IMG/VR virus record: IMGVR_UViG_3300027659_000022
Coordinates: 1-64,000 of that record
Source of the DNA: a virus
Length of the DNA stretch: 64,000 nucleotides
Reading direction: 5' to 3' (one strand)
The notes under the pieces were generated by a model. The model was not told the DNA's origin and searched no databases. It worked only from the letters and a program-made list of their open reading frames with translations. The position numbers and the translations under genes were made by a program. The stretch's first letter is position 1. Each line of letters starts with the position of its first letter. Below, one piece after another: positions 12,854 to 64,000 of the stretch.

Positions 12854-13906
12854 ATGGCTATTGGTCGTATTTCCGGTCAGCTCTTGAAATCCAACTTGCT
12901 TCGTGCAGGCGAGAATTTGGCTTTCGAGACAGACTTACTCTATTTGGATGTTGTTAACTCTCGCATCGGGATAAAAACAGCAGCCCCTAGCACAGACCTC
13001 GATGTCAACGGTCACACTCGTTCAACTAATCTCACTGTAGATACACAACTAAATGTAGGCGATCTACACTTCACTGGTAATACCATAACCAGTGATTCTT
13101 CAACCATAAACTTTGCAGCGGCCGCAGGTGAAGCCACCGTTTATCATTCGAGACTGCAGATAGATGATCTGCAACTGCAGGGCAACACCATATCAACCAC
13201 TGTGAGCAACAGCAGCATAGAAATAGACCCCAACGGCACAGGTACTGTTAATATTATTGCTAATACCAATATCACCGGTAACCTAGGAGTCACAGGCAAC
13301 ATCTCTGCCACAGGCAATGTGGTTATAGGCGGTAACATACAGATTGGTGATGCACTTACAGATAATATTATATTCAATGCCAGCATCCGCAGCGATCTTG
13401 TGCCAGAAACTGACAACACCTATGATCTAGGTTCTGTTGCATTCCGTTGGAGAGCTGTTTACGCTGCTAATCTGTACACAGATATTATCACTGTACCTGC
13501 ACTAGATGTAGGTAACTTGATGTTCCGTGATAATGAAATCACTACCACAACAGGACAAGACCTATACATTGACGGCAATGGTGCAGGAGGTGTGAGATTA
13601 GGCAATTTCCGTATAGTAGATAATGTGATCACTAACATAACCTCCGGAGCGGTATCACAGATAGCACAGACAGGTATTGGATATTTTAAAATACAAGGCA
13701 CCAACGGTTTTGTGCCTCCTGTAGGAGCATCCGGAAATAGACCAACTGCATATGCTGTGTTAGGTATGACAAGATTCAACACTGATTCCGCTGCTTTGGA
13801 GATATGGGACGGCGCAGACTGGGCATCACCAGCAGGTGCATCAGGTGCTGTTTCTGTTGCAGAAGCCAACGACATCGCTGCTCAATTAGCATTGACACTA
13901 GGATAA
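12854..13906 (+). CDS. Structural protein, paralog of 11626 gene
   Basis: A 350-aa protein with MAIGRISGQLLKSNLLRAGE, then NLAFETDLLYLDVVNSRIGI, matching the start of the gene at 11626, with the same series of beta repeats (LGVTGNISATGNVVIGG) and the same C-terminal hairpin (GMTRFNTDSAALEIWDGADW). The C-terminus diverges (VAEANDIAAQLALTLG against a LGHVYTLMLG ending). A duplicated fibre-associated or baseplate-distal protein is inferred. It has its own promoter core and leader. Confidence 0.65.
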   Translation: MAIGRISGQLLKSNLLRAGENLAFETDLLYLDVVNSRIGIKTAAPSTDLDVNGHTRSTNLTVDTQLNVGDLHFTGNTITSDSSTINFAAAAGEATVYHSRLQIDDLQLQGNTISTTVSNSSIEIDPNGTGTVNIIANTNITGNLGVTGNISATGNVVIGGNIQIGDALTDNIIFNASIRSDLVPETDNTYDLGSVAFRWRAVYAANLYTDIITVPALDVGNLMFRDNEITTTTGQDLYIDGNGAGGVRLGNFRIVDNVITNITSGAVSQIAQTGIGYFKIQGTNGFVPPVGASGNRPTAYAVLGMTRFNTDSAALEIWDGADWASPAGASGAVSVAEANDIAAQLALTLG

Positions 13907-13910
13907 ACAT

Positions 13911-14243
13911 ATGCCAACAGTATTTAAACACGCACTGGTTACACAAATAGGCACTAACCCCACCGATGTAGTAGAGATTGGCGCAGGAGTCCGAGCCACA
14001 GTTATAGGCTGTAATCTAGCTAACGTGACAGAGTACGACACTGTGGTAGTGGACATACAGGTAGTGGGTGTAGATACCACAGTGGCATACTATGTCAAGG
14101 GATTAATAATCCCACCAAACACATCTGTGAAAGTGATCACACAGGGCGAAAAATTAATACTGCCCGCAGAAACAGAACTGCGAATGGTCAGCGACACCGC
14201 AGACAGTGTCGATGCCACAGTAAGTTACGTTGAAATATCATAA
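13911..14243 (+). CDS. Small beta-sandwich-like virion protein
   Basis: A 110-aa protein, MPTVFKHALVTQIGTNPTD onward, with 'VIGCNLANVTEYDTVVVDIQ' and 'LIIPPNTSVKV ... KLILPAETELRMVSD'. The same strand plan occurs in the 133-aa protein at 10500. It probably forms a compact Ig-like or jelly-roll domain on the virion. It starts 4 nt after the previous stop, and AGGA overlaps that gene's end. Confidence 0.55.
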   Translation: MPTVFKHALVTQIGTNPTDVVEIGAGVRATVIGCNLANVTEYDTVVVDIQVVGVDTTVAYYVKGLIIPPNTSVKVITQGEKLILPAETELRMVSDTADSVDATVSYVEIS

Positions 14244-14252
14244 GGATCGATC

Positions 14253-14618
14253 ATGCCAAGCACATATTATCTAGGAACCAGTCCAGACGAAGCACTAGGA
14301 GATAGCCCTCGATACTGGTATGCTTTGCGTAGAAATGAAGACGGTGAATTATTTTTGCTACGCAGTGATCAACTCAAAGACAAAGACAGCATTGAATTAA
14401 ATCTTCCTGGGGCCCCCGAAGAAAATTTTGAGGATCTTGAACCTGGAGTAGATTATTTTGACGGTATCACCGAGGACCATGAGGTAGAATACGATAATTT
14501 AGTATATACACAATATCGTTGGGATAATCGTAACATGCTCTACTACGTAGACAGTAACGGTAGGCTAACACAGCGGATAAATCAAGGTTACACATACCCT
14601 ACAGGACATTCAAGTTAA
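14253..14618 (+). CDS. Small acidic virion-associated protein, unknown
   Basis: A 121-aa protein rich in Asp, Glu and Tyr: STYYLGTSPDEALGDSPRYW near the start, then an acidic middle (FEDLEPGVDYFDG) and YTQYRWDNRNMLYYVDSNGR near the end. It is translated from AAGGATCGATC-ATG and sits directly before the first giant fibre gene, so a fibre-attachment or chaperone role is possible. No family was recognised. Confidence 0.55.
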   Translation: MPSTYYLGTSPDEALGDSPRYWYALRRNEDGELFLLRSDQLKDKDSIELNLPGAPEENFEDLEPGVDYFDGITEDHEVEYDNLVYTQYRWDNRNMLYYVDSNGRLTQRINQGYTYPTGHSS

Positions 14619-20277: not shown

Positions 20278-23200
20278 ATGGCAGAATTCAAACTAGGTAG
20301 AATTAGATTTGTATGGAAAAATGACTGGAACCCTTCCACCGTCTATTACATAGACGATGTGATAAGATACGGTGCCCGCACCTATATCTGTGCTGTAGGT
20401 CATACCTCCGCAGCGGATTTTAACACAGATCTAGAATACAGTCCTACCAAATGGAATCAAATGAGCGACGGCCAATCATGGACCGGCGATTGGAATACTT
20501 CTACATTCTACAAACTTAATGATGTGGTGAAATATGGCGGATTGTTATATATCTGCAATGACAGTCACACATCTACAGCCACAACAGCATCAGGTCTAGA
20601 AGCTGATCAAGCCAAATGGACATTATATGCCGAAGGATTTGATTGGAAAAATTCTTGGTCAGTCAGCACACGATACAAGGTAAATGATCTAGTTAGATAC
20701 GGCGGTTACACTTATGTATGTAATACCTATCATACATCTGCAGCCACAGCCGCATCGGGACTAGAAGCTGATCAAGCTAAATGGGACAGTTTCAACCAAG
20801 GCATAGAATACAAAGGTACCTGGGTCACCGCTACCAGATATAAACTCAATGATGTTATAAAATATGGTGCAGGACTTTGGATCTGTACCACACAGCACAC
20901 TGCTGATGCCGCATTCTTAACAGACAGCACTGCAGGTCGTTGGGCACAATTTGCAGAAGGTATTGAATTTGAAGATACATGGAGTTCTGGAACTCTATAC
21001 CAACCAGGAGACATAGTTCGATACGGTGGTAATCAATACGTAGCAAAAAATATTCACTCAGCGATTGTTCCATCGACAGGCACATCAAATTGGGATTTAT
21101 ACAGCGAAGGATTCAAATTTCAATCAGACTGGAATGATAGTACTTCTTACAAAATCGGTGAAGTTGTTAGACTTCGCGGATATACCTATCTAGCCACAGC
21201 AGACAATACTAATCAAGAGCCACCTAATGTCACATATTGGCAAAGACTTACTTCTGGTATTGCTTGGCAAGGAGAATGGACTGACGATATAAATTATAAA
21301 TTAGGCGATGCAGTGAGATTTGGCGCAAATGCCTATATCTGTCTTCTGGCACACAGATCAGAAGGTGACGATGGATCAACTATAGGACCAGAAGGCGGAG
21401 GTGCTGCTAATAGTAGACCAGATCAAGACAGCACAGGTACCTATTGGAGCTTACTAAACATCGGTTCTGAAACTGATATCTTATCAGTTCGTGGAGATTT
21501 AGTTTACTACAGCGGTTCGGGCCCTACAAGATTACCTATCGGACGTGAAGGTCAAGTTCTACGGTCCGACGGTGTAGACCCAGAATGGGCCACACTAGGC
21601 GAAATTGATCACAATTATTTTGTAGCACCACACGGCACAGATCTTCCTGCACCTATACATGGCAAGACCTGGGATAAGCCATGGAAGACTATTCGATATG
21701 CCTGTGAACAGGTAGAACGTGGCCCTAGAAATCCCGATGCCACATATCTATTAGAACTTAATCGTGTGTTCATACAACGAGAAACCACAGAATTCATACA
21801 GAATCAGATCACTAACAACATAGCACCGTTCACATCGGCATTTGTCTACGACGATTTCAAATGTGAAAGAGATGTGGGATTTGTTGTAGATGCATTGATC
21901 TATGATCTTAGACATGGCGGCAACGTCAAAACTAGAGGAGCAGCTAATGCTCTCATAGGTGGACTCAGCGCAGAAGAAACAGAAGCATATCCTGGTCTAG
22001 CTGCAGAATCAGACGAATCCATAGCGGCCTATAATTACATGGTCACTGTAGTCGAGGATGTACTAGCACAGACAGCTCCAGCAGTGAACTATCAGACCTT
22101 GAACGGTGACAATTCAACTGCCACAGTATCGCAGTATTTCAATGCTGACCTCACAGCAGAACCAGGAGCATATACCACAGCAGCTGGTTTAGTTGAAGTA
22201 ATCACTGATGCTATCACTGCCCGTGCAGCAGCAGTAACCGCTCCACAGATCGCAGCAGCATTGGCCAGTGTGCCTGCTCGTAGAAGTCCTAACAATCTTA
22301 TCAGCATTGCTACTGGGCAATACAGAGAAACGTTGCCTATCATTGTTCCAGAACAGACCTGCGTGATTGGAGACGAATTAAGATCCACAAACGCTGGTCC
22401 TGCTGGTAGCTTGACGAATCTTGCAGATTCTTACTATTCTATGGGTGCGCTGTCAAGACTAGAAACAGTAGTCAGTCAAATTATCACTGGCTCTAACGTC
22501 ACAGAAAGCTCAGGAAACACTGCTACACAGAGTGCAGCATTTCCGTATGCCAGCGCAGATGAACAGGCAGATATCACACAGCTGGTAAGAGTAATACAGC
22601 ATCAGATCGATTATCGAATCAGCACCACTCACATGGTTACCAACACAGATCCTACAGGTTACGATACTGCTTATCTCACAGGCTACGGTGATGCTAGAAC
22701 ACTGATAAAAGAAAACAAAGAATTTATCAAAGCTGAAATCATCGCCTTTATCACTGAAAACTACCCTTCAGTGAAATATTCTAGAACCATATGCAAACGA
22801 GACACAGGTTTTATTGTCGATGCTATGGTCTATGACTTGACCTATGGCGGTTTTACGCAGACACTGAATGCAGGATTAGCCTATTTTGACGGCACCACAG
22901 GGCTGGAAATTGACGCATCAGAAGTCACTGCTACTGTGGCTGCTTATGGTAGATTAAAAACTGTGATGCAAGAAATCGCTGCTAACACCACAGTGACCAA
23001 ATCCACAGGTAATGCTGCTACACAATGGACCGATGCGACTAATCTCACAGGTGGGTCTGCAGCCAGCGCATTCATCGGCGCTAACATTGACAACATCACT
23101 AACCTATTAGCAGGCGATTCCACCGCAGCTACTCCTCCTATCGTTACAGTGACTTCGATAACTGGCACAGACACCTTTGTTACTGCTGGTCACAGTCTAC

Positions 23201-26200
23201 AAGCAGGCGACCTAGTGGTTCCTATTGAAACACAGAACGGACTCACTGTAGGCACACGTTATTACGTAATTGCATCAGGACTTACAGCTACTGATTTCAA
23301 GGTATCAACAAGTTATGCGGGTGCAGCAGCCACAGGATTTACTAACGGTTCTGGTTTAACCTTGGTAATGACCTACGAGGATCGTCCGATTGCCACCAAC
23401 GCTGTAACTTCTACCACAGCACTAATTACTGCATTTACAACTCTAAGTGCGGCGGCTCAGACTATTGTATCAAACATGACAGTTTATATTGATGCAAACT
23501 TTCCATCATTAACCTATGATCCTAATAAGTGTGAAAGAGATGCTAGAATTATCTTAGATGCAGTAGGCTATGACTTCATGTTTAACGCCAACGGACAAAC
23601 TAGAAATGCAGCTTACGCTTATCTAAGAGCCAGTGCCAGCGATGTTTATAGTCTAGGACAGAAAGCAGCCACCCGAGCAGCATTTAGTTATGTGAAAACA
23701 CAAGCCAAGGCCAACGTAGGCGGTGATGCTACTGCACAGGCTCGCATTGAAACACTGATGACTCTGTTAGATGATATCATTTATGGCGCCACCAACGAAG
23801 GTAGTCGCTGTGCTTCTGGTAACAGGATGGTGGATTACGCAGTTCTGCAGTTAGAAAGAAACAGAGATTATGTTGTTACAGAGATCGATGCGTACATAGA
23901 CTCAACATATACAACCACAGTAACGAATGCCACAGCGGCCACAGATGTGTTTACCTGCACCAGCACAGCTTGGATGCAGCGTAATGCAGCAGTGAGATTC
24001 TCAGGAACTGTATTTGGCGGTATTAGCACAGGTACAACATATTACATACAGAATGTTGTAAGCTCAACAACCTTTAAAATCTCAACTACAAGAGATTCAA
24101 ACACAGCACTAGACATTGCATCTAATGCATCTGGATCTATGACTGTGAGCTTGTATTACAGCAGTGAAGCATGCCTGCGAGACGTTGGTACATATATTGA
24201 CGCACTAAAATATGATTTGAAATATCCAGGCAACTACAAATCTCGATATGCCGCTAGATACTATGGTAACAGCGTGGTTGGCAGCCTAGAAGAAGACATG
24301 TATTATCTACGTGATGGTACAGGTGTTAGAGATCAGACACTGCAGGGACTCACAGGCGATCTTTTAGCACCTAATGAGTACGGTACATCAAGAGTTTCGG
24401 CCGGAGCCTACTGTTCCTTGGATCCAGGTTGGGGTCCAGAAGATTACCGTACCTGGATCAACACTCGCTCACCATACGTACAAGGGGTGACCACACTGGG
24501 TACAGCCGCCGTGGGACAGAAGATCGACGGCTCGCTGCACAATGGTGGTAATGATTCCATCGTTTCCAACGACTTCACACAGGTTATATCAGACGGTATT
24601 GGTGCTTGGATCACCAACAACGGTCGTGCTGAATTGGTATCAGTGTTCTCATACTATGCGCACATCGGATATCTAGCAGAAAATGGTGGTAGGATCCGTG
24701 GCACCAACGGTAACTGTTCATACGGAGATTTTGGAGCTGTGGCAGAAGGATTTGATGCCAGTGAAACACCTGGCACAGCCGTAGTAGATAATAGACTGCA
24801 ATTTGAAGCAGTTATTGATCGCATTGTCACAGACGGATCGGCACTGACACAATTTGAATTTACCAATGCTGGTATTGATTACACTGAAGTCACATATGTC
24901 ATTACAGGTGGCGGCACTGGAGGATCAGTTCAGCAGGATGAATTCCGTGATGACGCTGTGTTCGAAGTACGCATGTTGGATCTAGTTGAAGACAGTACCG
25001 ACGCTGAAGAAGCTGTAGGTAATTTTGGTGGATTTGGTTATATTACAAATTCCAACACCTGCCAGGGCGGCACATCAACTTCAGTGACTATTGCTGCCAC
25101 AGATAGTGAGACCAGCACAGCCTATATAGGTATGAAAATCGTGCTCACAGGCGGTGCAGGTGTAGGACAGTTTGGTATTATCGACACATATAATTCAGGC
25201 ACTAAAGTAGCAGGCTTGGTCAAAGAATCCGATGGCACAGCAGGATTTGATCATTTGATAGCAGGCACAGCAATAGTATCACCAGATGCTTCTAGCACCT
25301 ATATCATCGAACCAAGAGTAACATTCTCAGCACCCGGCTACACATCCACAGCAGCTACACTGCCAACCTCAGGCACATGGACCGCTGTCAAATACGGAGA
25401 AACCGCAGCGGTATACGCATCAGTCACCGGCACCTACAGTGGTGCCGGTGTTGGTGCTACATTTACTGTGATACGCAACGGATGGAAATACACACCGTCC
25501 TTACAGACCGCTGGTACAGGATATGTGAGATTACAAACCATTACCATACTGGGAACCAGTCTCGGTGGGTTGAGCACAGCCAACGACCTAGTGATAACCA
25601 TCACCGCGGTTAATGCTGCAACTGGAGCTATCTTAAACTTTGATCATGCAGGATATGGCATAGGTGGCAGATATGTAGCTCTAAGAGGTGGCAGCACAGT
25701 GGGCGCAACATCTGAAGATGGTATTGCATGGGATACTCGAGCCAGCTTAATGCCGAGTGCGGCAAACTGGTCAGCTATGACTGCTGGCTTGTTTGATGAC
25801 GGATCCACAGTGGGCAAAGTCAGCAAATTCGTAGCAGTTGCTGGAACCTCAGCCAACACCACAGGTGCATATTCAGATGACGGCATTACTTGGTCAGCCG
25901 CCAGTATGCAGACATCAGCAACATGGGTAGATGTGGCATTTGGTGGTTTCAGCGCACAGAAATTTGTAGCAATAGCCAGCGATGTAACCACTGTGCGGAT
26001 CAGCAATGATGGTGAAAACTGGGATCAAACTGGCACACTTACCACCACTGGTTTCACAGCTATTGCATACGGTAAAAACAGATTCGTAGCCATCAAGAGT
26101 GGAACCGCAGTTACAAATTATGCTACCACATCAGGAGTCACGGGCACATGGACTGCAGGCACACTGCCAAGTTCATCGAACTGGAACAGTATAGCCTACG

Positions 26201-27558
26201 GTAATAACAGATTCGTAGCTGTGTCTAACACCAGTGGTACTGTAGCTGCCTACAGTCTAGATGGTATTACGTGGACTGCCAGCACACTGCCATCAACAGC
26301 ACAATGGACCAAGGTCACATACGGTCAAGGAGTATTCCTTGCTGTGAGTACAACCACAGCAGCAGCAACTTCTCCAGACGGTATCACATGGACTCTAAGA
26401 GCTACATCTACAGCAGCCAGTGGATTCTCAGCTGTCACTTTTGGTAACAGAAATCGTTATGGTCAATTTGTAGGTGTTGGCGCTAGCACAGGCACAGTAG
26501 CCACATACATTAGAACTGGAGCCACTGCTAGAGCTCGTGCGTTGGTGGCATCTAACAAGATATTCCAGATTAACATCACAGAGCCTGGTTCTGGATATAC
26601 TACTGAACCAACTATAACATTCACGGATCCTAACAACACCTTTGAAGCACCAGTAACCGTGAGACGAGGATCGGGAGTATTGGCCAATCCATCGTTTGTT
26701 AACCGAGGCACGCAGTATGTCACCAGCAGCTGTGAAGTAGACATCGGCGACGGTTACGCCAACGTGTTCCAACCAGGCGCATTTGTAGCAGTGAGACAGA
26801 TCACTGAACAACCAACTCCGGGATCTAATGTGGTGTTTGGACATCTACCAGATCGCACATTTAAATTAGTGAATGTTATCACGTTCTTGGGCGTCAACGA
26901 TGGAGCCTACACCGCATTCTTACAGATCAGTCCTAATTTAACCATCGGCGAAGCACCTGAAGATGCTGTAACGGTCACCACCAGACTGCGTTATAGCCAG
27001 TGTCGTTTAACTGGGCATGACTTCTTGGACATAGGTACTGGTAGTTTTATTGAAACTAACTATCCTAACTCTCCGTTGCAGCCGCCTATTCCAGCCAACG
27101 AAGCAGTTGATTCCAACGGTGGCCGTGTGTTCTTTACAAGCACAGACCAGGACGGTAACTTCCGAGTTGGCGACCTGTTTAACATTGAACAATCAACTGG
27201 TATTGCTACATTAAATGCTGATGCTTTTAATATTTCGGGCCTGCAAGAACTTAATTTAGGCAACGTGACACTAGGTGGCGGTTCGGCTACGATCACTGAA
27301 TTCTCTACAGACCCGTTCTTTACTGCGGATTCAGACAATATCGTACCTACACAGAGAGCGATCAAAGCCTATATTGGCAGCCAAATTGGTGGTGGTGGTG
27401 CTAGCTTGAACGTTAACTCAGTGACAGCAGGATCAGTGTTTATCAGCTCAAATATCATAACTACTACCACAGGCGGTGCGATTAAAATGAATGCTACCTT
27501 TGATTTCAGAGGGGGAGTAACTGGCCTTCCGTTGGCATTCAACTACTTTTTAAACTAA
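20278..27558 (+). CDS. Giant tail-fibre/adhesin, paralog of 14631 gene
   Basis: A 2426-aa protein with the same plan as its upstream neighbour. It has seven N-terminal CBM5/12-like repeats (for example DWKNSWSVSTRYKVNDLVRY then GG-x2-Y-x-C), a long middle, six or more 'RFVAV ... YSLDGITW' propeller repeats, and a C-terminus with GHDFLDIGTGSFIETNYP and DGNFRVGDLFNIEQSTGIAT. It is about 550 aa longer because the middle contains extra copies of a 'C-x-RD-x-GF-x-VDAxxYDLxYGG' module (near residues 530, 840, 1085 and 1300). One 53-nt stretch is identical to its paralog. It is probably a major host-recognition protein. Confidence 0.75.
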   Translation: MAEFKLGRIRFVWKNDWNPSTVYYIDDVIRYGARTYICAVGHTSAADFNTDLEYSPTKWNQMSDGQSWTGDWNTSTFYKLNDVVKYGGLLYICNDSHTSTATTASGLEADQAKWTLYAEGFDWKNSWSVSTRYKVNDLVRYGGYTYVCNTYHTSAATAASGLEADQAKWDSFNQGIEYKGTWVTATRYKLNDVIKYGAGLWICTTQHTADAAFLTDSTAGRWAQFAEGIEFEDTWSSGTLYQPGDIVRYGGNQYVAKNIHSAIVPSTGTSNWDLYSEGFKFQSDWNDSTSYKIGEVVRLRGYTYLATADNTNQEPPNVTYWQRLTSGIAWQGEWTDDINYKLGDAVRFGANAYICLLAHRSEGDDGSTIGPEGGGAANSRPDQDSTGTYWSLLNIGSETDILSVRGDLVYYSGSGPTRLPIGREGQVLRSDGVDPEWATLGEIDHNYFVAPHGTDLPAPIHGKTWDKPWKTIRYACEQVERGPRNPDATYLLELNRVFIQRETTEFIQNQITNNIAPFTSAFVYDDFKCERDVGFVVDALIYDLRHGGNVKTRGAANALIGGLSAEETEAYPGLAAESDESIAAYNYMVTVVEDVLAQTAPAVNYQTLNGDNSTATVSQYFNADLTAEPGAYTTAAGLVEVITDAITARAAAVTAPQIAAALASVPARRSPNNLISIATGQYRETLPIIVPEQTCVIGDELRSTNAGPAGSLTNLADSYYSMGALSRLETVVSQIITGSNVTESSGNTATQSAAFPYASADEQADITQLVRVIQHQIDYRISTTHMVTNTDPTGYDTAYLTGYGDARTLIKENKEFIKAEIIAFITENYPSVKYSRTICKRDTGFIVDAMVYDLTYGGFTQTLNAGLAYFDGTTGLEIDASEVTATVAAYGRLKTVMQEIAANTTVTKSTGNAATQWTDATNLTGGSAASAFIGANIDNITNLLAGDSTAATPPIVTVTSITGTDTFVTAGHSLQAGDLVVPIETQNGLTVGTRYYVIASGLTATDFKVSTSYAGAAATGFTNGSGLTLVMTYEDRPIATNAVTSTTALITAFTTLSAAAQTIVSNMTVYIDANFPSLTYDPNKCERDARIILDAVGYDFMFNANGQTRNAAYAYLRASASDVYSLGQKAATRAAFSYVKTQAKANVGGDATAQARIETLMTLLDDIIYGATNEGSRCASGNRMVDYAVLQLERNRDYVVTEIDAYIDSTYTTTVTNATAATDVFTCTSTAWMQRNAAVRFSGTVFGGISTGTTYYIQNVVSSTTFKISTTRDSNTALDIASNASGSMTVSLYYSSEACLRDVGTYIDALKYDLKYPGNYKSRYAARYYGNSVVGSLEEDMYYLRDGTGVRDQTLQGLTGDLLAPNEYGTSRVSAGAYCSLDPGWGPEDYRTWINTRSPYVQGVTTLGTAAVGQKIDGSLHNGGNDSIVSNDFTQVISDGIGAWITNNGRAELVSVFSYYAHIGYLAENGGRIRGTNGNCSYGDFGAVAEGFDASETPGTAVVDNRLQFEAVIDRIVTDGSALTQFEFTNAGIDYTEVTYVITGGGTGGSVQQDEFRDDAVFEVRMLDLVEDSTDAEEAVGNFGGFGYITNSNTCQGGTSTSVTIAATDSETSTAYIGMKIVLTGGAGVGQFGIIDTYNSGTKVAGLVKESDGTAGFDHLIAGTAIVSPDASSTYIIEPRVTFSAPGYTSTAATLPTSGTWTAVKYGETAAVYASVTGTYSGAGVGATFTVIRNGWKYTPSLQTAGTGYVRLQTITILGTSLGGLSTANDLVITITAVNAATGAILNFDHAGYGIGGRYVALRGGSTVGATSEDGIAWDTRASLMPSAANWSAMTAGLFDDGSTVGKVSKFVAVAGTSANTTGAYSDDGITWSAASMQTSATWVDVAFGGFSAQKFVAIASDVTTVRISNDGENWDQTGTLTTTGFTAIAYGKNRFVAIKSGTAVTNYATTSGVTGTWTAGTLPSSSNWNSIAYGNNRFVAVSNTSGTVAAYSLDGITWTASTLPSTAQWTKVTYGQGVFLAVSTTTAAATSPDGITWTLRATSTAASGFSAVTFGNRNRYGQFVGVGASTGTVATYIRTGATARARALVASNKIFQINITEPGSGYTTEPTITFTDPNNTFEAPVTVRRGSGVLANPSFVNRGTQYVTSSCEVDIGDGYANVFQPGAFVAVRQITEQPTPGSNVVFGHLPDRTFKLVNVITFLGVNDGAYTAFLQISPNLTIGEAPEDAVTVTTRLRYSQCRLTGHDFLDIGTGSFIETNYPNSPLQPPIPANEAVDSNGGRVFFTSTDQDGNFRVGDLFNIEQSTGIATLNADAFNISGLQELNLGNVTLGGGSATITEFSTDPFFTADSDNIVPTQRAIKAYIGSQIGGGGASLNVNSVTAGSVFISSNIITTTTGGAIKMNATFDFRGGVTGLPLAFNYFLN

Positions 27559-35304: not shown

Positions 35305-36777
35305 TTGATTAATAACATAGCTATAGTAGGTGGGGGCACAGCCGGAGTAACTACCGCTTTGATTTTAAAAAAAACATATCCTAATCTACAGATTGATTTG
35401 ATAGAATCAGATCAGATAGGAATCGTAGGGGTAGGAGAAGGCAGCACTGAACATTGGGCTACCTTCATGCAGCACTGTGATATCAGTACCACTGAGCTGG
35501 TCAAACATACTGATTGTACTTTTAAATACGGTATTAATTTTGATAACTGGAATGGCGATGGTACAAATTATATTCACACAATTAGCAGTGCTTTTAACAT
35601 GGAGAGTCAAAGCAACAGTAAATTTGTATACTCATATCTGATAGCCAACGGAGCAGGCCCCAAGGATCTCATTCACAAATATATAGAACCTAGTCTGCAT
35701 AGAATGCCGTTCTTTACTATAAACCAATTTCATTTTAACACAACCAAATTAAATAAATTCCTACACGATCTCTGCGATCAAAGAAAAATAAACACCATAA
35801 AAGCAGAAATCAAAGAAGTTAAATTGGATGAGCAGGGCGCAATCAAAGAGTTAATTACCACAACTGATAAACACCTTAGTTATGACTTATATGTCGATTG
35901 TACCGGATTTCATCGTTTGCTTTTGCACAAAACTATGGGGGTCAAATGGCGCAGTTACCAAAAATATCTTCCAATGAACAGTGCTATCGCATTCCCTACA
36001 GAAACCACAGAAAAAATTCCCAGTTGGACACTAGCAAAGGCAATGAACAATGGATGGTTATGGAGAATTCCAACTCAACAACGATACGGCAATGGTTACG
36101 TGTTCAATGATAGTTTTATAGATTTCGACAAGGCCGTTGACGAAGTTGAAAAGCTCTATGGACATAAAATACAAGTAGCAAAAAAAATAAAATTTGATGC
36201 AGGATGTTTAGAAAAATCATGGGTAAAAAACTGTGTAGCTATTGGTTTATCTAGCAGTTTTATTGAACCTCTAGAAGCCAGCTCAATAGGATGCAGTATA
36301 CAACAGGCATTCAAGTTAAATCATTTATTACCTGCTTATATACCGGAAATTAAAACTACTCGGGTGATCGACGAATTCAATCAAGAATGTGATGAACTTC
36401 TTGAAAATATTTTAGATTATGTAGCATTACATTATATCACTAAGAGAACTGACACAGATTTTTGGAAATCTGCTAAGACTCTTCCAAAACCTTCGGGGTT
36501 AGAAGACAAATTAGAATTATACAAATACAAATTTCCTAGTAAGTCAGAATTTTCAAATAGAAAAGTCATGTTTAAAGAAGCCAACTGGATATTAGTAATG
36601 CATGGTCTAGGATTAATCAGCAAAGAATTAGCACAGAAAGATGTGGACATGCAGGCTAAACATCTAATGGAATCAATACCGTATAATCTTCCTAAAGAGG
36701 ATATCGATTCTGGAGAATTTGTTGATCATAGGCAGGCGTTACAATGGCTAATTGACAATCCAGAGCAGATAAATTGA
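35305..36777 (+). CDS. Flavin-dependent tryptophan-halogenase-like enzyme
   Basis: A 490-aa FADH2-dependent halogenase-family enzyme. It has an N-terminal FAD motif IAIVGGGTAGVTTALIL (residues 5-21), candidate catalytic Lys74 in TFKYGINFDNW (PrnA Lys79 context), the halogenase motif WLWRIP (residues 251-256) and SSFIEPLEASS with Glu321/Glu324 (PrnA Glu346 region). Known family members chlorinate or brominate Trp and related substrates; the substrate here is unknown. The start is TTG at 35305: the FAD motif begins 5 residues in, no ATG is available, and AAGGT lies upstream. It overlaps the following oxygenase-like gene (TTGA). Similar genes are reported in marine T4-like phages. Confidence 0.85.
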   Translation: MINNIAIVGGGTAGVTTALILKKTYPNLQIDLIESDQIGIVGVGEGSTEHWATFMQHCDISTTELVKHTDCTFKYGINFDNWNGDGTNYIHTISSAFNMESQSNSKFVYSYLIANGAGPKDLIHKYIEPSLHRMPFFTINQFHFNTTKLNKFLHDLCDQRKINTIKAEIKEVKLDEQGAIKELITTTDKHLSYDLYVDCTGFHRLLLHKTMGVKWRSYQKYLPMNSAIAFPTETTEKIPSWTLAKAMNNGWLWRIPTQQRYGNGYVFNDSFIDFDKAVDEVEKLYGHKIQVAKKIKFDAGCLEKSWVKNCVAIGLSSSFIEPLEASSIGCSIQQAFKLNHLLPAYIPEIKTTRVIDEFNQECDELLENILDYVALHYITKRTDTDFWKSAKTLPKPSGLEDKLELYKYKFPSKSEFSNRKVMFKEANWILVMHGLGLISKELAQKDVDMQAKHLMESIPYNLPKEDIDSGEFVDHRQALQWLIDNPEQIN

Positions 36778-44015: not shown

Positions 44016-44687
44016 ATGATTATAGGAGTATGTGGTTTTATTGGCAGCGGCAAGGACACCGTCGCAGACTATCTGGTTAACTTCCACGAATTTAGACGAG
44101 AATCATTTGCCAGCACACTGAAAGATGCTGTGGCAGCCGTATTTGGTTGGGACAGAACCATGTTGGAAGGTCGTACTAAAGCAGCTCGTGAGTGGCGCGA
44201 ACAGGTAGATCCATGGTGGGCCAAACGCTTAGATATGCCTACGCTAACCCCTCGATGGGTCTTGCAATACTGGGGCACAGAAGTCTGTAGAAAATCCTTC
44301 CACGATGATATCTGGATAGCCAGTTTAGAAAACAAACTGCGAAATTCACAGGATCATGTGGTAATCTCAGACTGCCGTTTTCCTAATGAAATTGCCAGCA
44401 TACGCAATGCGGGCGGTAAAATCATTTGGGTGCAACGTGGTGCGTTACCCGAGTGGTATGATACCGCAGTGGCAGCTAATCAAGGCTATAATTGGGCTCA
44501 TCAAGATCTCAAGATGCGAAAGATACACGCTTCAGAGACTGCTTGGGTGGGCACAGAGTTTGATCATATCTTGATCAACGATCACAGCATAGACGAGCTC
44601 TACGATACTGTGAGATCAATAATCAGCAACGAGATCACCTTGACGCCAAGTGACTCCTTCTTTGCTCAGAACGCCAGCACAGTTTAG
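44016..44687 (+). CDS. 1: Deoxynucleoside monophosphate kinase (T4 gp1-like)
   Basis: A 223-aa dNMP kinase that makes dNDPs for phage DNA synthesis. P-loop 'GVCGFIGSGKDTVADYLV' (GFIGSGKD at residues 7-14), then 'FASTLKDAVAAVFGWDR' and 'TPRWVLQYWGTEVCRKSF', 'DHVVISDCRFPNEIASI' (catalytic/nucleotide motif with DCRFPNE). T4 gp1 is 241 aa. It is driven by a host-type early promoter, unlike the surrounding late genes. Its last 72 nt overlap the antisense HNH-like gene. Confidence 0.88.
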   Translation: MIIGVCGFIGSGKDTVADYLVNFHEFRRESFASTLKDAVAAVFGWDRTMLEGRTKAAREWREQVDPWWAKRLDMPTLTPRWVLQYWGTEVCRKSFHDDIWIASLENKLRNSQDHVVISDCRFPNEIASIRNAGGKIIWVQRGALPEWYDTAVAANQGYNWAHQDLKMRKIHASETAWVGTEFDHILINDHSIDELYDTVRSIISNEITLTPSDSFFAQNASTV

Positions 44688-59709: not shown

Positions 59710-60165
59710 ATGAATTGGTATGATCGAGTTTCCAAGGATATTTCGAATATTCCTGATGCTGTGGCCTATTATGAAGCTGAATTAATTTCAGCAAAACAAG
59801 ATGTCCGTGTAACGGGAAACATCGAGAAAGCCTCTGCGCAGATGCCTGGCATCGTAGAAACTCGGTTCAATCAACTTCAAGAAATTGAAGGTATTCTAGA
59901 ATATCTCAATATCGAACTTCGAAGACTGCGTAGTCAACACTTTCGTAAATATCTCGAAAACTATCAACGTCAGCTCAGTTCCAGAGACTGTGAAAAGTTT
60001 GTGGAAGGTGAAGCTGATGTTGTAGATTTTGAAAAGATCATCAATGACTTTGCTCTGCTACGTAACAAATGGCTAGGCATTATCAAAGCCTTAGACATCA
60101 AGCAATGGCAGTTGAGTAATATCGTCAAACTTAGAACTGCAGGACTAGAAGACGCTACTCTATGA
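59710..60165 (+). CDS. uvsY: UvsY recombination mediator
   Basis: A 151-aa protein. 'ASAQMPGIVETRFNQLQEIE', 'GILEYLNIELRRLRSQHFRK', 'YQRQLSSRDCEKFVEGEADV', 'LLRNKWLGIIKALDIKQWQL' match the T4 UvsY plan, including 'L(T/S)SRD-x3-(F/Y)V-x-G' and 'L-x-RNK-x-LGI(V/I)K'. T4 UvsY is 137 aa. It loads UvsX onto gp32-coated ssDNA. Starts directly after the preceding stop; overlaps the epimerase (ATGA). Confidence 0.9.
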   Translation: MNWYDRVSKDISNIPDAVAYYEAELISAKQDVRVTGNIEKASAQMPGIVETRFNQLQEIEGILEYLNIELRRLRSQHFRKYLENYQRQLSSRDCEKFVEGEADVVDFEKIINDFALLRNKWLGIIKALDIKQWQLSNIVKLRTAGLEDATL

Positions 60166-61130
60166 CAATTTTAGTAACTGGTGGCCTAGGATTAATAGGG
60201 CACCATGTAGTTAAGAAATTAGAAGATCTCGGTGAACAAGTGGTAATCACTGACACCCGAACCAACTACGGTATTATACCTCAGGCCGAAATCGATTATC
60301 TAATTTCTCAGAGATTAAAATCAATCACGACCGATAAAATACATCGCATTGACATCAGCGAACGAGATAGTGTAGAATGGTTGTTCAGGCACTACCGACC
60401 TTCAGCAGTGGTACATCTAGCATCATTTCCCCGGCAAAAAGTAGTTAATGCTGATCCTGCGCAAGGCGCTAAAGTCATGAGCGAAGGACTACTGAACCTA
60501 TTAGAGGCCAGTGTGAAATATCAATGTCCGAGATTCCTGTATGCCAGTTCTAGCATGGTCTATGGTGATTTCAAAGATTATGTCAAAGAAGATGCTGTTT
60601 GCCGTCCACAAGGTCAGTATGGTATAATGAAATTAGCAGGCGAGTGGTTAGTACGAGATTATCAACGTAAAGGAATCGAGCATACTATTTTTAGACCCAG
60701 TGCGGTGTATGGTCCATTAGATGTTGAGGACCGCGTGATTTCAAAGTTTCTGCTCACTGCCATGAGAGGCGGTGTATTAAAGGTAAACGGGATCCACGAA
60801 ACTCTAGATTTCACCTATGTGGACGATGCAGCCCAGGGCATGGTAAAGGCACTGCTGAGTAAAAACACCAAAAACAAAACATACAATATAACCAAAAGCC
60901 ACAGTAAAACTTTGTATGCAGCCGCACAATTGGCCGTGGAGTTAGTTGGCAATGGCAGCATAGCCATCGGTGATAAAGATCAAGATTTTCCTAGTCGAGG
61001 TGCCTTAGACATTTCTGCTGCACGTCAAGATTTCGGATTTGATCCGAAGATAGATATAGAGGAAGGTTTCGAACGTTATTATCATTGGTTGAAAAATTCT
61101 TCGTACTATCAAGCCAATCTTTTAGATTAG
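60162..61130 (+). CDS. NAD-dependent sugar epimerase/dehydratase
   Basis: A 322-aa extended SDR enzyme. Rossmann 'ILVTGGLGLIGHHVVKKL' (GGLGLIG at residues 7-13), 'SAVVHLASFP' , Ser129-131 in 'FLYASSSMVYGD', catalytic Tyr153/Lys157 in QYGIMK, and 'FRPSAVYGP'. These features define nucleotide-sugar epimerases/dehydratases (UDP-glucose epimerase type). The exact nucleotide sugar is unknown. It overlaps uvsY and begins the sugar cluster. Confidence 0.9.
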   Translation: MTILVTGGLGLIGHHVVKKLEDLGEQVVITDTRTNYGIIPQAEIDYLISQRLKSITTDKIHRIDISERDSVEWLFRHYRPSAVVHLASFPRQKVVNADPAQGAKVMSEGLLNLLEASVKYQCPRFLYASSSMVYGDFKDYVKEDAVCRPQGQYGIMKLAGEWLVRDYQRKGIEHTIFRPSAVYGPLDVEDRVISKFLLTAMRGGVLKVNGIHETLDFTYVDDAAQGMVKALLSKNTKNKTYNITKSHSKTLYAAAQLAVELVGNGSIAIGDKDQDFPSRGALDISAARQDFGFDPKIDIEEGFERYYHWLKNSSYYQANLLD

Positions 61131-61140
61131 TCATTATATG

Positions 61141-61158
61141 TGCAGATAAATATCTGCA
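61141..61158 (+). promoter_or_regulatory. Perfect 8-bp palindrome containing TAAATA late core
   Basis: TGCAGATA-AA-TATCTGCA is a perfect inverted repeat (61141-61158). It contains TAAATA at 61147-61152 with 5 nt (TCTGC) before ATG 61158; no Shine-Dalgarno. Its end overlaps the start codon. It may be a regulatory operator or hairpin, or coincidental. Confidence 0.5.
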
Positions 61159-61919
61159 TGAAAACCTTAGTACTTGTCACAGGGGGATTCGATCCTCTAC
61201 ACTCCGGGCACATCGCCTACTTTCGTGCAGCAAAGCAACTAGGAGACACACTGGTTGTTGGTGTTAATTCTGATGCGTGGTTGGTTCGTAAAAAAGGTCG
61301 AGCATTTATGCCTTGGAACGAACGCATGAATATCGTCAAAAATATCAAAGACGTAGATTTTGTCTTGGAATTCAATGATGATGATGGCAGCGCCAAACAG
61401 GCAATAAAATTAGCCAGACAAACATGGCCGGATCATAAAATTATATTTGCCAATGGCGGGGACCGCACAGACGCTAATATTCCGGAAATGGAGTTTGAGG
61501 ATCGTAATCTCGAATTTGCATTTGGAGTTGGCGGATTCGATAAGGCCAATTCCAGTTCGTGGATATTAGAAGAATGGAAAGCTCCTAAGACCGGCAGGGC
61601 ATGGGGTTACTATCGTGTGTTACATGAAGTTCCTGGAATGAAAGTCAAAGAGTTGACCGTTGATCCCGGTAAAAGTCTGTCTATGCAAAGACATCAATCT
61701 AGATCAGAATTTTGGATAGTCAGTGAAGGGCAGGCGATGGTAAACAGAGCTACACCTTTGAATTTTGATTTACCTACTGCAGAATTAAACAAACACGAAC
61801 AATTACATATCGTTCAACAAGAATGGCATCAACTCACAAATCCTTACAGCCATCCATTAAAAATTGTAGAGATACAATACGGTGATCAGTGCGTAGAAGA
61901 GGACATAGAAAGACGATGA
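61158..61919 (+). CDS. Cytidylyltransferase fused to mannose-6-phosphate-isomerase-type cupin
   Basis: A 253-aa two-domain protein. Residues 1-135 have the nucleotidyltransferase motif 'VTGGFDPLHSGHIAYFRAA' (HSGH at 15-18), 'VVGVNSDAWLVRKKG' and 'NGGDR', as in RfaE/glycerol-3-phosphate cytidylyltransferases. Residues 145-253 are a cupin 'RAWGYYRVLHEVPGMKVKEL', 'GKSLSMQRHQSRSEFWIVSE', 'EWHQLTNPYSHPLKIVEIQY', GDQCVEEDI, as in type II phosphomannose isomerases. The fusion suggests activation of a sugar phosphate. Start set by the leaderless core; overlaps the next gene (ATGA). Confidence 0.82.
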   Translation: MKTLVLVTGGFDPLHSGHIAYFRAAKQLGDTLVVGVNSDAWLVRKKGRAFMPWNERMNIVKNIKDVDFVLEFNDDDGSAKQAIKLARQTWPDHKIIFANGGDRTDANIPEMEFEDRNLEFAFGVGGFDKANSSSWILEEWKAPKTGRAWGYYRVLHEVPGMKVKELTVDPGKSLSMQRHQSRSEFWIVSEGQAMVNRATPLNFDLPTAELNKHEQLHIVQQEWHQLTNPYSHPLKIVEIQYGDQCVEEDIERR

Positions 61920-62587
61920 AAGTATTTGTTGGCTATGATATCAGAGAAGATATCGCATATCAGGTCTGTGAATACAGTATACACAAACATCAATCCGCAG
62001 CACAGGTGATTCCTCTCAAGCAAAAAGAACTTAGAGAAAGCGGTGTCTATACCAGAACTGTAGATCCTCTCAGTTCCACAGAATTTACATTCACAAGGTT
62101 TCTAGTACCTTATCTAGCAGATTATCAAGGTTGGGCTGTGTTTGTGGACTGTGATGTTGTGTTTATCCAAGATGTCAAAGAACTGTTTGCCCAGGCCGAT
62201 GATCAATATGCCGTGATGGTGGTCAAACATGATTATACCCCTAAAGAAGGGTTGAAGATGGACGGGTGTCGTCAACTTCCGTATCCAAGAAAGAACTGGA
62301 GTTCTGTGATACTATGGAATTGTGCTCATCCTTCAAATCGACAAATTACTCCGGACATCGTTAATAGTCAAACAGGACAGTATCTACACAGATTCCAGTG
62401 GCTAGACGAAAAAGAAATAGGTGCATTGACACTAGACTGGAATTGGCTAGTGGGCTGGTATCAAGAACCTCAAGATGGCACACCTAAGGCTCTGCATTAC
62501 ACAGAAGGTGGGCCATGGTTCGCTGAATATAGACGCTGTGATTATCACAAGGTCTGGAAAAAATATCTTCGAGAAATGCTCAAATGA
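61916..62587 (+). CDS. Glycosyltransferase (GT-A, DxD)
   Basis: A 223-aa protein: 'MKVFVGYDIREDIAYQVCEY', 'FTRFLVPYLADYQGWAVFVD' with DCDVVF (DxD at residues 78-80), and 'SSVILWNCAHPSNR', 'LTLDWNWLVGWY', 'ALHYTEGGPWF', similar to GT8-like glycosyltransferases. It uses a nucleotide-sugar donor with a divalent metal. Starts in an ATGA overlap and overlaps the next gene by 4 nt. Confidence 0.82.
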   Translation: MKVFVGYDIREDIAYQVCEYSIHKHQSAAQVIPLKQKELRESGVYTRTVDPLSSTEFTFTRFLVPYLADYQGWAVFVDCDVVFIQDVKELFAQADDQYAVMVVKHDYTPKEGLKMDGCRQLPYPRKNWSSVILWNCAHPSNRQITPDIVNSQTGQYLHRFQWLDEKEIGALTLDWNWLVGWYQEPQDGTPKALHYTEGGPWFAEYRRCDYHKVWKKYLREMLK

Positions 62588-63378
62588 TTTTCCTCAGCAA
62601 AGACGGCCAGGATCCATATATCAACATGCTAGCACAAGGCTGCGGTAAAAAAGTCACTGACACCAACAACTTCGATTATGCCGCTAGTTCTGAACCCCTA
62701 GTGCTACGAGGCATACTCAAGAAAAAAATCATACATCGTTGCTTGGCCGATGGCCGAACATTTTACTACGTAGATACGGGATATTTTGGCAATGAGATCA
62801 CTGCTGGTAATCCCAATGGTTGGAAGTATTGGCACAGAATTGTTAAGAACGATCTACAACACAAATATGTGGTGCCAAGATCAGATGATAGGTTTAAAAA
62901 TTTCAAAAAAAAGATTTCGTCTTGGAAAAAGACAGGTTCTAAGATATTAATAGCAAAGCCTGATGACAAGCCAATGAGATTCTATGACTACAACATGGAT
63001 GTATGGCTGCAGAATACTGTTGACACTATCCGTGAATACACTGACAGGCCTATAGAGATCAGAGATCGTGCGGCCAAGCGCATAGATAGAATACAGCACA
63101 ACACACTACAAGAAGCATTAGATGACGATGTGTTTGCACTAGTGACTTTTAATAGTGTGGCCGCGGTTGAATCTGTGTTTCACGGCATACCGGTGTTCAC
63201 CCTAGCACCAACGAATGCAGCTGAGCCAATGGGGCTGCAGGATCTTTCACTGATAGAAACTCCTCGTTATCCAGACAGCGACGAAGTTTATCAATGGGCT
63301 AGTCATTTGGCCTACGGTCAATTCCACAACAGCGAATTACGCAACGGCAAGGCAATGGAGATGCTACAACATGGATGA
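62584..63378 (+). CDS. Glycan-related protein, tandem paralog 1
   Basis: A 264-aa protein. 'FYYVDTGYFGNEITAGNPNG', 'HRIVKNDLQHKYVV', 'DNFKKKISSWKKTGSKILIA'-like FKNFKKKISSWKKTGSKILI, and 'ALVTFNSVAAVESVFHGIPV'. The last motif resembles the donor-site 'S-x-ALEAL-x-G-x-PV' signature of GT-B-type glycosyltransferases used for surface polysaccharides. It is paralogous to the following gene. Likely part of a glycan pathway with the genes upstream; enzymatic function inferred. Confidence 0.6.
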   Translation: MIFLSKDGQDPYINMLAQGCGKKVTDTNNFDYAASSEPLVLRGILKKKIIHRCLADGRTFYYVDTGYFGNEITAGNPNGWKYWHRIVKNDLQHKYVVPRSDDRFKNFKKKISSWKKTGSKILIAKPDDKPMRFYDYNMDVWLQNTVDTIREYTDRPIEIRDRAAKRIDRIQHNTLQEALDDDVFALVTFNSVAAVESVFHGIPVFTLAPTNAAEPMGLQDLSLIETPRYPDSDEVYQWASHLAYGQFHNSELRNGKAMEMLQHG

Positions 63379-64000
63379 AGAACTATTTAGAAAATCAATC
63401 CCAGGCATACCACCCTCAGTTTTTCGAGGAGTAACCAAGAGAAAACACATACAACAACATTGGAAGGATAAAACAGATTTCTATTACATGGATACTGGGT
63501 ATTTTGGAAATTTTATAAGTCTTGGAAATCCTGGTGGAACAAAATTGTTTCACAGAATAGTCAAAAACGATCTACAAAAACATTGGTTAGAGAAATATCC
63601 CGACGATCGTTGGCAAGAAATTTGTAAAATTGATTCTAGATACCAATGGAACGGATGGAAGAAAAAAGGCAACAAAATCTTAATAATTGTGCCGAATAGA
63701 AAATCGTGTGTGTTTTATGGCTACGAAGAAGGCAAGGCCAAAGACCGAGATGAAAGAAAACCCACTTGGCTAATGAACACCATAGAAACTATAAAAAAAT
63801 ATACAGACATGGAGATTGTTATTAGAGAAAAAGGCAGCAGATCTGATCGACACCATCATTCAATATTTGATGCCCTTGATGAAGGAATATTTGCCACAGT
63901 AACATTTAATAGTATTGCAGCACTAGAGTCTGTGATATACGGAATTCCTGCATTTGTCACAGTACCGTGTGCAGCATCTCCGTTAGCTCTAACAGACCTT
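63371..64000 (+). CDS. Glycan-related protein, tandem paralog 2, 3' end outside window
   Basis: ATG 63371 overlaps the previous gene by 8 nt; the frame stays open to the window end (210 codons). It repeats the plan of its neighbour: 'DFYYMDTGYFGNFISLGNPG', 'FHRIVKNDLQKHWLEKYP', 'KGNKILIIVPN', 'ATVTFNSIAALESVIYGIPA'. It is therefore a tandem duplicate, diverged at roughly half the residues by eye. It continues beyond the window. Confidence 0.72.
   Translation, partial: MDEELFRKSIPGIPPSVFRGVTKRKHIQQHWKDKTDFYYMDTGYFGNFISLGNPGGTKLFHRIVKNDLQKHWLEKYPDDRWQEICKIDSRYQWNGWKKKGNKILIIVPNRKSCVFYGYEEGKAKDRDERKPTWLMNTIETIKKYTDMEIVIREKGSRSDRHHHSIFDALDEGIFATVTFNSIAALESVIYGIPAFVTVPCAASPLALTDL

Follow-up and report, generated by a model that had tools for sequence, protein, structure and literature searches.

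Which sugar is made by the genes that follow uvsY in this phage, and to what is it attached? The window analysed here, a 64,000-nucleotide stretch of DNA, belongs to a virus contig of 86,365 bases. Its 3' end and the adjoining part of the contig contain the following features.

59710–60165, plus strand: uvsY recombination mediator, the conserved upstream anchor (PHROG 231 match, 4e-16)
60162–61130, plus strand: NAD-dependent SDR epimerase/dehydratase for nucleotide sugars (Pfam Epimerase PF01370, 1.4e-44; phrog_540)
61158–61919, plus strand: nucleotidyltransferase-cupin fusion (CTP_transf_like, 1.1e-13; MannoseP_isomer PF01050, 4.5e-22)
61916–62587, plus strand: GT-A glycosyltransferase with a DxD motif (DCD) and a predicted GT8-like fold (phrog_28018, 1.4e-54)
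62584–63378, plus strand: GT-B-like paralog 1, predicted KpsC/WbbB-like fold without QXXXD (AF2 model, Foldseek, motif tally)
63371–64129 (the window stops at 64000), plus strand: GT-B-like paralog 2, 48% identical to paralog 1
64126–65220, 65213–66136, 66808–67608 (minus strand) and 68866–69699, contig extension: GT-B paralogs 3–6
66133–66843, contig beyond the window: FkbM gene
75201–76181, same contig: GMD

The initial annotation had described an operon coupled to uvsY, with overlapping starts and continuing past 64 kb. The stop codon of uvsY indeed overlaps the epimerase start (ATGA), and start/stop overlaps between cassette genes are 4–8 bases, the exception being a 27-base gap 5' of the fusion. 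Extension to the full record confirmed the continuation: the glycan genes run on the plus strand to ~66.8 kb, with related genes to 69.7 kb, followed by uvsW. The phage lineage is best explained as T4-like and jumbo-type, with the cassette occupying the uvsY-uvsW interval. The epimerase after uvsY and the DxD glycosyltransferase had been recognised correctly, as had two tandem GT-B-like paralogs, which number six across the 86-kb contig. The starts of the fusion (ATG 61158) and of the GT-A gene (ATG 61916) are corrected here; both are conserved in relatives. The cassette genes neighbour replication and recombination genes, and elsewhere in the contig there are genes for FkbM methyltransferases, a carbamoyltransferase, a halogenase and a 2OG oxygenase.

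Intact orthologs were found in many other phage contigs, with the order uvsY-[epimerase]-fusion-GT-A-GT-Bs kept by the majority of the 80 best relatives, and all tested cassette genes are under purifying selection (dN/dS 0.02–0.18). The cassette is therefore neither a chance assembly nor a set of degenerate remnants, and the scattered, frameshifted genes that the initial annotation had considered are excluded.

Cassettes of this type have been published in jumbo phages and cyanophages, as capsular-polysaccharide modification clusters (PMC7824862), and in pelagiphages, as the glycosyltransferases of the pelagimyophage host-recognition cluster (PMC7029224). The common elements are SDR epimerases, cupin isomerases, a HIGH nucleotidyltransferase, glycosyltransferase paralogs and polymorphism among related phages, and all the features that define the cluster of PMC7824862 were found here. 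In contrast to the published clusters, ours is located between uvsY and uvsW, has its nucleotidyltransferase fused to the cupin, contains a six-copy KpsC-like glycosyltransferase family and shows no PfkB kinase among the present cassette genes. In the cluster of Pelagibacter phage Mosig EXVC030M, relatives of the GT-A and GT-B enzymes are likewise adjacent and accompanied by methyltransferases, but they are 29–46% identical and no fusion enzyme was found. The novelty is thus the fusion, not the cassette type.

The initial annotation had overlooked that the cassette is anchored by the fusion, its most conserved gene with ~550 viral relatives, and that this gene probably ties it to mannose metabolism. 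Its N-terminal half (approximately residues 1–138) is a HIGH-superfamily nucleotidyltransferase and its C-terminal half (approximately residues 145–253) a cupin of the phosphomannose isomerase (PMI) type; alignment A2 shows an invariant HxGH motif and, in the cupin, invariant ligand positions (QxH..E..H). The earlier label of a cytidylyltransferase-cupin protein was right about the fusion, which Pfam confirms, but "cytidylyltransferase" is merely a superfamily name. ManC/AlgA, the GDP-mannose pyrophosphorylase/type II phosphomannose isomerase, also combines a PMI-type cupin with a nucleotidyltransferase, and the same two reactions are predicted for both. However, the nucleotidyltransferase of the fusion comprises only ~138 residues and belongs to the unrelated HIGH superfamily (CTP_transf_like); an NTP_transferase-type guanylyltransferase domain is not present in the N-terminal half, and the ManC/AlgA model TIGR01479 (GMP-PMI) matches the cupin alone (positions 359–460). 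The joining of these two enzymes in one gene is previously undescribed, and the fusion seems to stand in for the enzyme that usually makes activated mannose.

A competing assignment for the fusion, which we consider unlikely, is a heptose-1-phosphate adenylyltransferase or glycerol-3-phosphate cytidylyltransferase combined with a cupin that serves another function. The best curated (NCBIfam) models of the N-terminal half are indeed rfaE domain II (71.1 bits) and then TagD (51.7 bits), and cyanophage relatives are annotated in these terms, but the scores are far below the respective cut-offs of 181.5 and 165.4. In a phylogenetic tree, the phage N-terminal domain and the cellular domain linked to phosphomannomutase (PMM) form one clade with 100/100 support, apart from HldE. 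The solo genes near gp43 and uvsX of cyanophages S-SSM7 ("RfaE") and S-SCSM2R ("G3P cytidylyltransferase") fall into the same clade and are 51% and 49% identical to the N-terminal half, respectively, but lack the cupin half. A separate HldE-like gene is also present in a SAR11 genome that we examined (G013), and the cellular neighbours of the domain are mannose genes, not heptose genes.

These neighbours were seen in alphaproteobacteria, where the standalone domain adjoins genes for phosphomannomutase, GDP-mannose dehydratase and GDP-fucose synthase, in the arrangement cupin-PMM-nucleotidyltransferase plus GMD/GDP-fucose synthase. The fusion itself also occurs in SAR11 chromosomes, sited between polA and an MFS gene and not in a sugar cluster. 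Among the sampled genomes, the ManC guanylyltransferase was found in 0/14 with the HIGH-type domain versus 158/275, and among the GMD-positive genomes in 0/11 with the domain versus 108/121, counts that are not independent because the 14 domain-bearing genomes are related and incomplete. The PMI cupin is kept in all 14. A further 14 genomes have the cupin but neither ManC nor a clear HIGH-type gene, and scanning the whole phylum with a single query sequence at E 1e-20 gave 1/398. A search of the open-access literature for an alternative GDP-mannose pyrophosphorylase found nothing relevant. In the phages, GMD is present in 6 of 21 fusion-bearing records; a true GMD was not found in the 280-, 317- and 357-kb records.

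Judging from sequence, a mannose pathway is the likely role of the fusion: it would convert fructose-6-phosphate to mannose-6-phosphate and, using GTP, CTP or ATP, mannose-1-phosphate to NDP-mannose, with a host phosphomannomutase acting in between. More tentatively, and at slightly less than an even chance, we propose that the fusion is a HIGH-superfamily enzyme with mannose-1-phosphate guanylyltransferase activity that has so far not been described. It would take the place of ManC, without being its ortholog, in some alphaproteobacteria (SAR11 among them), and hundreds of uncultured large phages would carry it fused to the isomerase feeding it. If true, this would supply the GDP-mannose step that ManC-less bacteria are missing, correct a common misannotation (RfaE, glycerol-3-phosphate cytidylyltransferase) affecting marine phages as well as their relatives, and offer a simple assay for the sugar made by these abundant uncultured phages.

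The transferases downstream of the fusion have no clear membrane segments and appear soluble. The GT-A sequence scores below the gathering cut-off of Pfam GT8 (21.1 versus 24.3 bits), but its AF2 model (pLDDT 81) matches GlyE, WbbM and LgtC in Foldseek with E values down to 3e-11, and both aspartates of the DCD/DGD motif are invariant (alignment A5). The enzyme is thus predicted to have a GT8-type GT-A fold with DxD. For GT-B paralog 1 (AF2 model, pLDDT 96), all 17 PDB matches at E<=0.001 are to KpsC/WbbB/KrkA (GT107/GT99/GT140; PMC12887879), with TM-scores only up to 0.48; a sequence search of the PDB reached only E 0.7, and a profile scan of viral contigs with the six paralogs yielded no conserved word. 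The QXXXD nucleophile motif of retaining β-Kdo transferases (PMC12887879) is absent in 280 of 283 family sequences (Q in 83, D at +4 in 3). The HP of the CMP-binding motif (K/R)XHP occurs in 86 of 283, those of the paralog 4 and 6 types, while the others have RxK/RxR. As modelled for paralog 1, the GT-B paralogs share the KpsC/WbbB-type fold without the Kdo-transferase nucleophile, and membership of that family is rejected. Phage-made CMP-Kdo is likewise rejected, as the KdsB family is missing from 12 phage records.

The fold matches point to the envelope-glycan transferases KpsC/WbbB and to GT8 enzymes. They do not settle the acceptor, because the GT8 match GlyE is described as glycosylating protein. 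The capsid, the fibres and the host surface, which the initial annotation had proposed as targets, are all possible judging from sequence. We weakly prefer a host envelope glycan, slightly likelier than a virion protein, and regard it as an even call. The best overall explanation, equally balanced, is a uvsY-uvsW glycan cassette that supplies activated mannose to such an acceptor. The cupin half would interconvert fructose-6-phosphate and mannose-6-phosphate, host phosphomannomutase would supply mannose-1-phosphate, and the HIGH-type half would couple this to a nucleoside monophosphate, of which GMP is the probable one and would yield GDP-mannose. The sugar could be tailored by GMD, the epimerase, FkbM methyltransferases and the carbamoyltransferase. 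The soluble GT8-like and KpsC-like transferases would then add sugars stepwise in the cytoplasm to a glycan still at the inner face of the membrane, and the exported product would block superinfecting phages. Weighing against this explanation are the phages that carry the fusion but not the glycosyltransferases, the large records in which a true GMD was not found, and the siting of the SAR11 fusion outside a sugar cluster. A self-contained O-antigen or capsule locus with its own export is rejected, as the flippase Wzx (PF01943) was found in none of 12 phage records (control positive in 13/14 genomes).

Alternatively, the same enzymes might attach the sugars, still in the cytoplasm, to proteins of the capsid or fibres, so that the particle is masked or diversified. 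We judge this less probable, at roughly one chance in three. Soluble transferases, the missing flippase and the GlyE-like GT8 fold would all suit virion glycosylation, and the combination of GMD, FkbM methyltransferases and glycosyltransferases recalls the glycan genes of chloroviruses, which glycosylate with their own machinery (PMC4691112). Against it, the cassette is tied to uvsX/uvsY and not to structural genes, and the GT-B fold is nearest to capsule and O-antigen transferases. A small-molecule product, either a secondary metabolite derived from sugar and secreted or some other glycoside, as proposed for second clusters of cyanophages (PMC7824862), is very improbable: the halogenase, carbamoyltransferase and 2OG oxygenase genes share the contig but are ~10–25 kb away, outside the cassette, and six KpsC-like transferases are better suited to an oligosaccharide. 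T4-like phages possess DNA glucosyltransferases, and the replication/recombination setting would fit DNA-base glycosylation against restriction as by the T4 α-/β-glucosyltransferases, but this T4-type reading is the least credible and was rejected, since the thymidylate synthase/dCMP-hydroxymethylase family (PF00303) is absent in 12/13 phage records (including those of 280, 316 and 317 kb; records may be incomplete), the sole positive record (G003) lacks these transferases, and there is no Pfam match to the T4 enzymes.

Finally, the glycan-synthesis cassette is hypervariable and mosaic, with shuffled alleles that are 43–78% identical between flanks of 96–100% identity; no fixed pairing of cupin and GT-A alleles was seen. 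Shuffling of transferase alleles between near-identical flanks suggests that a glycan is the object of an arms race, and makes the question of the acceptor testable. Gene content varies as well: the epimerase is present in only part of the relatives (immediately 5' of the fusion in 13 of the 80 best), the glycosyltransferases are missing from several phages that carry the fusion, and in some relatives GT-A and GT-B form a single fused protein.

All six ORFs that the initial annotation had joined into a sugar operon headed by uvsY were found where it placed them. The overlapping starts it described hold for most junctions, as stop/start overlaps of 4-8 bases, except that a 27-base gap precedes the fusion gene (61158-61919). 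A domain search of the window matched UvsY (4e-16), an SDR epimerase (1.4e-44) and both halves of the fusion (CTP_transf_like, 1.1e-13; MannoseP_isomer, 4.5e-22); the DxD protein (GT-A) gave a weak GT8 match, and no domain matched the GT-B-like paralogs above the cut-off. The source of the window is a linear virus record of 86,365 bases, of which we examined positions 59001-86365. As the annotation had anticipated, the overlapping run continues past 64 kb, and further genes follow it:

64126-65220, + strand, GT-B paralog 3, in the overlapping run
65213-66136, + strand, GT-B paralog 4, in the overlapping run
66133-66843, + strand, FkbM methyltransferase, in the overlapping run
66805-68830, - strand, three genes: GT-B paralog 5, a second DxD GT-A and a small ORF
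68866-69699, GT-B paralog 6, after the three - strand genes
70.9-72.4 kb, uvsW, separated from paralog 6 by an ORF without assigned function
75201-76181, GDP-mannose dehydratase (GMD), farther on than uvsW
82858-84327 (12858-14327 of locus L003), NodU/TobZ-type carbamoyltransferase, farther on than uvsW, with a possible role in sugar tailoring

Three further FkbM genes, one cupin and a third GT-A also lie beyond uvsW. With 54% identity of its large terminase to that of Pseudomonas phages of the PA5oct kind, the phage is T4-like and probably jumbo; IMG/VR relatives reach 280-357 kb.

By curated models the N half of the fusion belongs to the HIGH nucleotidyltransferase superfamily, and only the isomerase part of ManC was matched by the C half. 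The N half scores under the thresholds of the models for heptose-1-P adenylyltransferase (score 71, cut-off 181.5) and glycerol-3-P cytidylyltransferase (52, cut-off 165.4). In a midpoint-rooted tree with long branches, phage fusions, SAR11 fusions, cyanophage solo genes and phosphomannomutase-linked genes form one 100/100 clade, separate from HldE. The N-half domain occurs at E<=1e-40 in 14 of 289 sampled alphaproteobacterial genomes, across which GMD and ManC were also scored. All 14 have a PMI cupin. The ManC guanylyltransferase is present in 0/14, versus 158/275 of the others (Fisher p 1e-5), and among GMD-positive genomes in 0/11 with the domain versus 108/121 without it (p 7e-10), both p values assuming independence of genomes that are related. 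In G037 the cupin, a phosphomannomutase (PF03332, above cut-off) and the nucleotidyltransferase are consecutive, with GMD close by; phosphomannomutase adjoins the nucleotidyltransferase-domain gene in G089 and G301, and GMD and/or GDP-fucose synthase lies near it in G089, G301, G188, G284 and G047. From gene context, the exclusion of ManC and the tree, we infer that the fusion acts in the mannose pathway, a prediction from sequence; since GMD uses GDP-mannose, GTP is the likely nucleotide of the N half.

In Pelagibacteraceae, one genome scan found the fusion flanked by polA and an MFS gene. The contig of another match (NZVE01000082.1, L085) is assigned to a Rhodobacteraceae MAG but has phage-like genes, among them a DNA polymerase and a sliding-clamp-like protein; it carries a fusion extended at its N terminus and looks like a T4-like phage. 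Within the mannose-linked clade, the solo N-half relatives of cyanophages S-SSM7 and S-SCSM2R (L191, L193) lie near gp43 and uvsX; their RfaE and glycerol-3-P cytidylyltransferase names are probably wrong.

A scan with the fusion as query confirmed 552 relatives in viral contigs. Among the best 80 of these, the match spans essentially the entire query, both halves included; counting related-gene matches only, the fusion is preceded by uvsY in 39 and by the epimerase in 13, and followed by GT-A in 59. The fusion is the sole cassette gene between uvsY and uvsW in phage locus L064 and is present without glycosyltransferases in several phages, and thus it, rather than they, anchors the cassette. 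The cassette has a smaller form in three phages without glycosyltransferases (L066, L067, L071), where uvsY is followed by a methyltransferase-like ORF with a GCG motif and then by the fusion. A single protein of 498-554 residues combines GT-A and GT-B in L022, L041, L059, L062 (known as a long GT-A ORF only) and L072, and relatives of the two adjoin each other in the published pelagiphage Mosig.

Every gene tested is under purifying selection (dN/dS 0.02-0.18). In L098 and L099, identity to the window is 96-100% for uvsX, the epimerase and uvsW, versus 78% for the fusion, 43% for GT-A and 53% for GT-B2. The fusions of L019, L022 and L028 are 96% identical to that of the window in the N half versus 52-54% in the cupin half, and therefore recombination extends inside the gene. 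We read this identity pattern as that of a locus undergoing diversifying exchange; O-antigen loci show a comparable one.

The GT-B paralog model (TRANSFERASES) is very confident (pLDDT 96, pTM 0.92). At E<=0.001 it has 17 PDB matches, each of them to the Kdo transferases KpsC, WbbB or KrkA, with TM <=0.48. Despite this likeness in fold, the QXXXD nucleophile motif is missing from 280 of 283 GT-B members; because of this absence and the TM values, we do not place the paralogs in the Kdo transferase class. In paralogs 4 and 6 the Q of QXXXD is kept, as is the CMP-binding motif (K/R)XHP; the other paralogs have neither. The GT-A model, of moderate confidence (pLDDT 81), matches the GT8 enzymes GlyE, WbbM and LgtC.

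The annotation had suggested capsid, fibres or host surface as acceptor. In T4, uvsY is a middle-mode gene; the coupling of the cassette to uvsY and the envelope-type folds slightly favour the host envelope, where soluble transferases could reach host glycans, lipid-linked or of the core, on the inner side of the membrane. Soluble transferases can also act on virion proteins, for which the autonomous glycosylation of chloroviruses is an analogue (PMC4691112). Export of a polymer made de novo by the phage is unlikely, since Wzx flippase and KdsB were found in none of the phage records tested, which may be incomplete. T4-type DNA glucosylation is likewise unlikely, as thymidylate synthase/dCMP-hydroxymethylase occurs in only 1 of 13 possibly incomplete phage records, and that one lacks glycosyltransferases.

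Clusters with the same ingredients in jumbo phages and cyanophages (PMC7824862) and in pelagimyophages (PMC7029224) were interpreted as modifying the host surface against coinfection. The cassette is thus of a known kind; the new part is the predicted HIGH-cupin enzyme, as neither such a fusion nor a HIGH-type mannose-1-P guanylyltransferase was found described in the open-access literature.

Elsewhere in the record, a tryptophan-halogenase family protein (35305-36777, + strand; phrog_2928, 2.7e-106), together with the carbamoyltransferase and 2OG oxygenase genes, recalls the cyanophage secondary cluster of PMC7824862. A deoxynucleotide monophosphate kinase family gene lies at 44016-44687 (+ strand; PF21448). 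The protein encoded at 20278-27558 (+ strand), of 2426 residues, contains CBM_5_12 carbohydrate-binding modules in repeats and is probably a fibre; its neighbour, of 1870 residues, has a similar N terminus.
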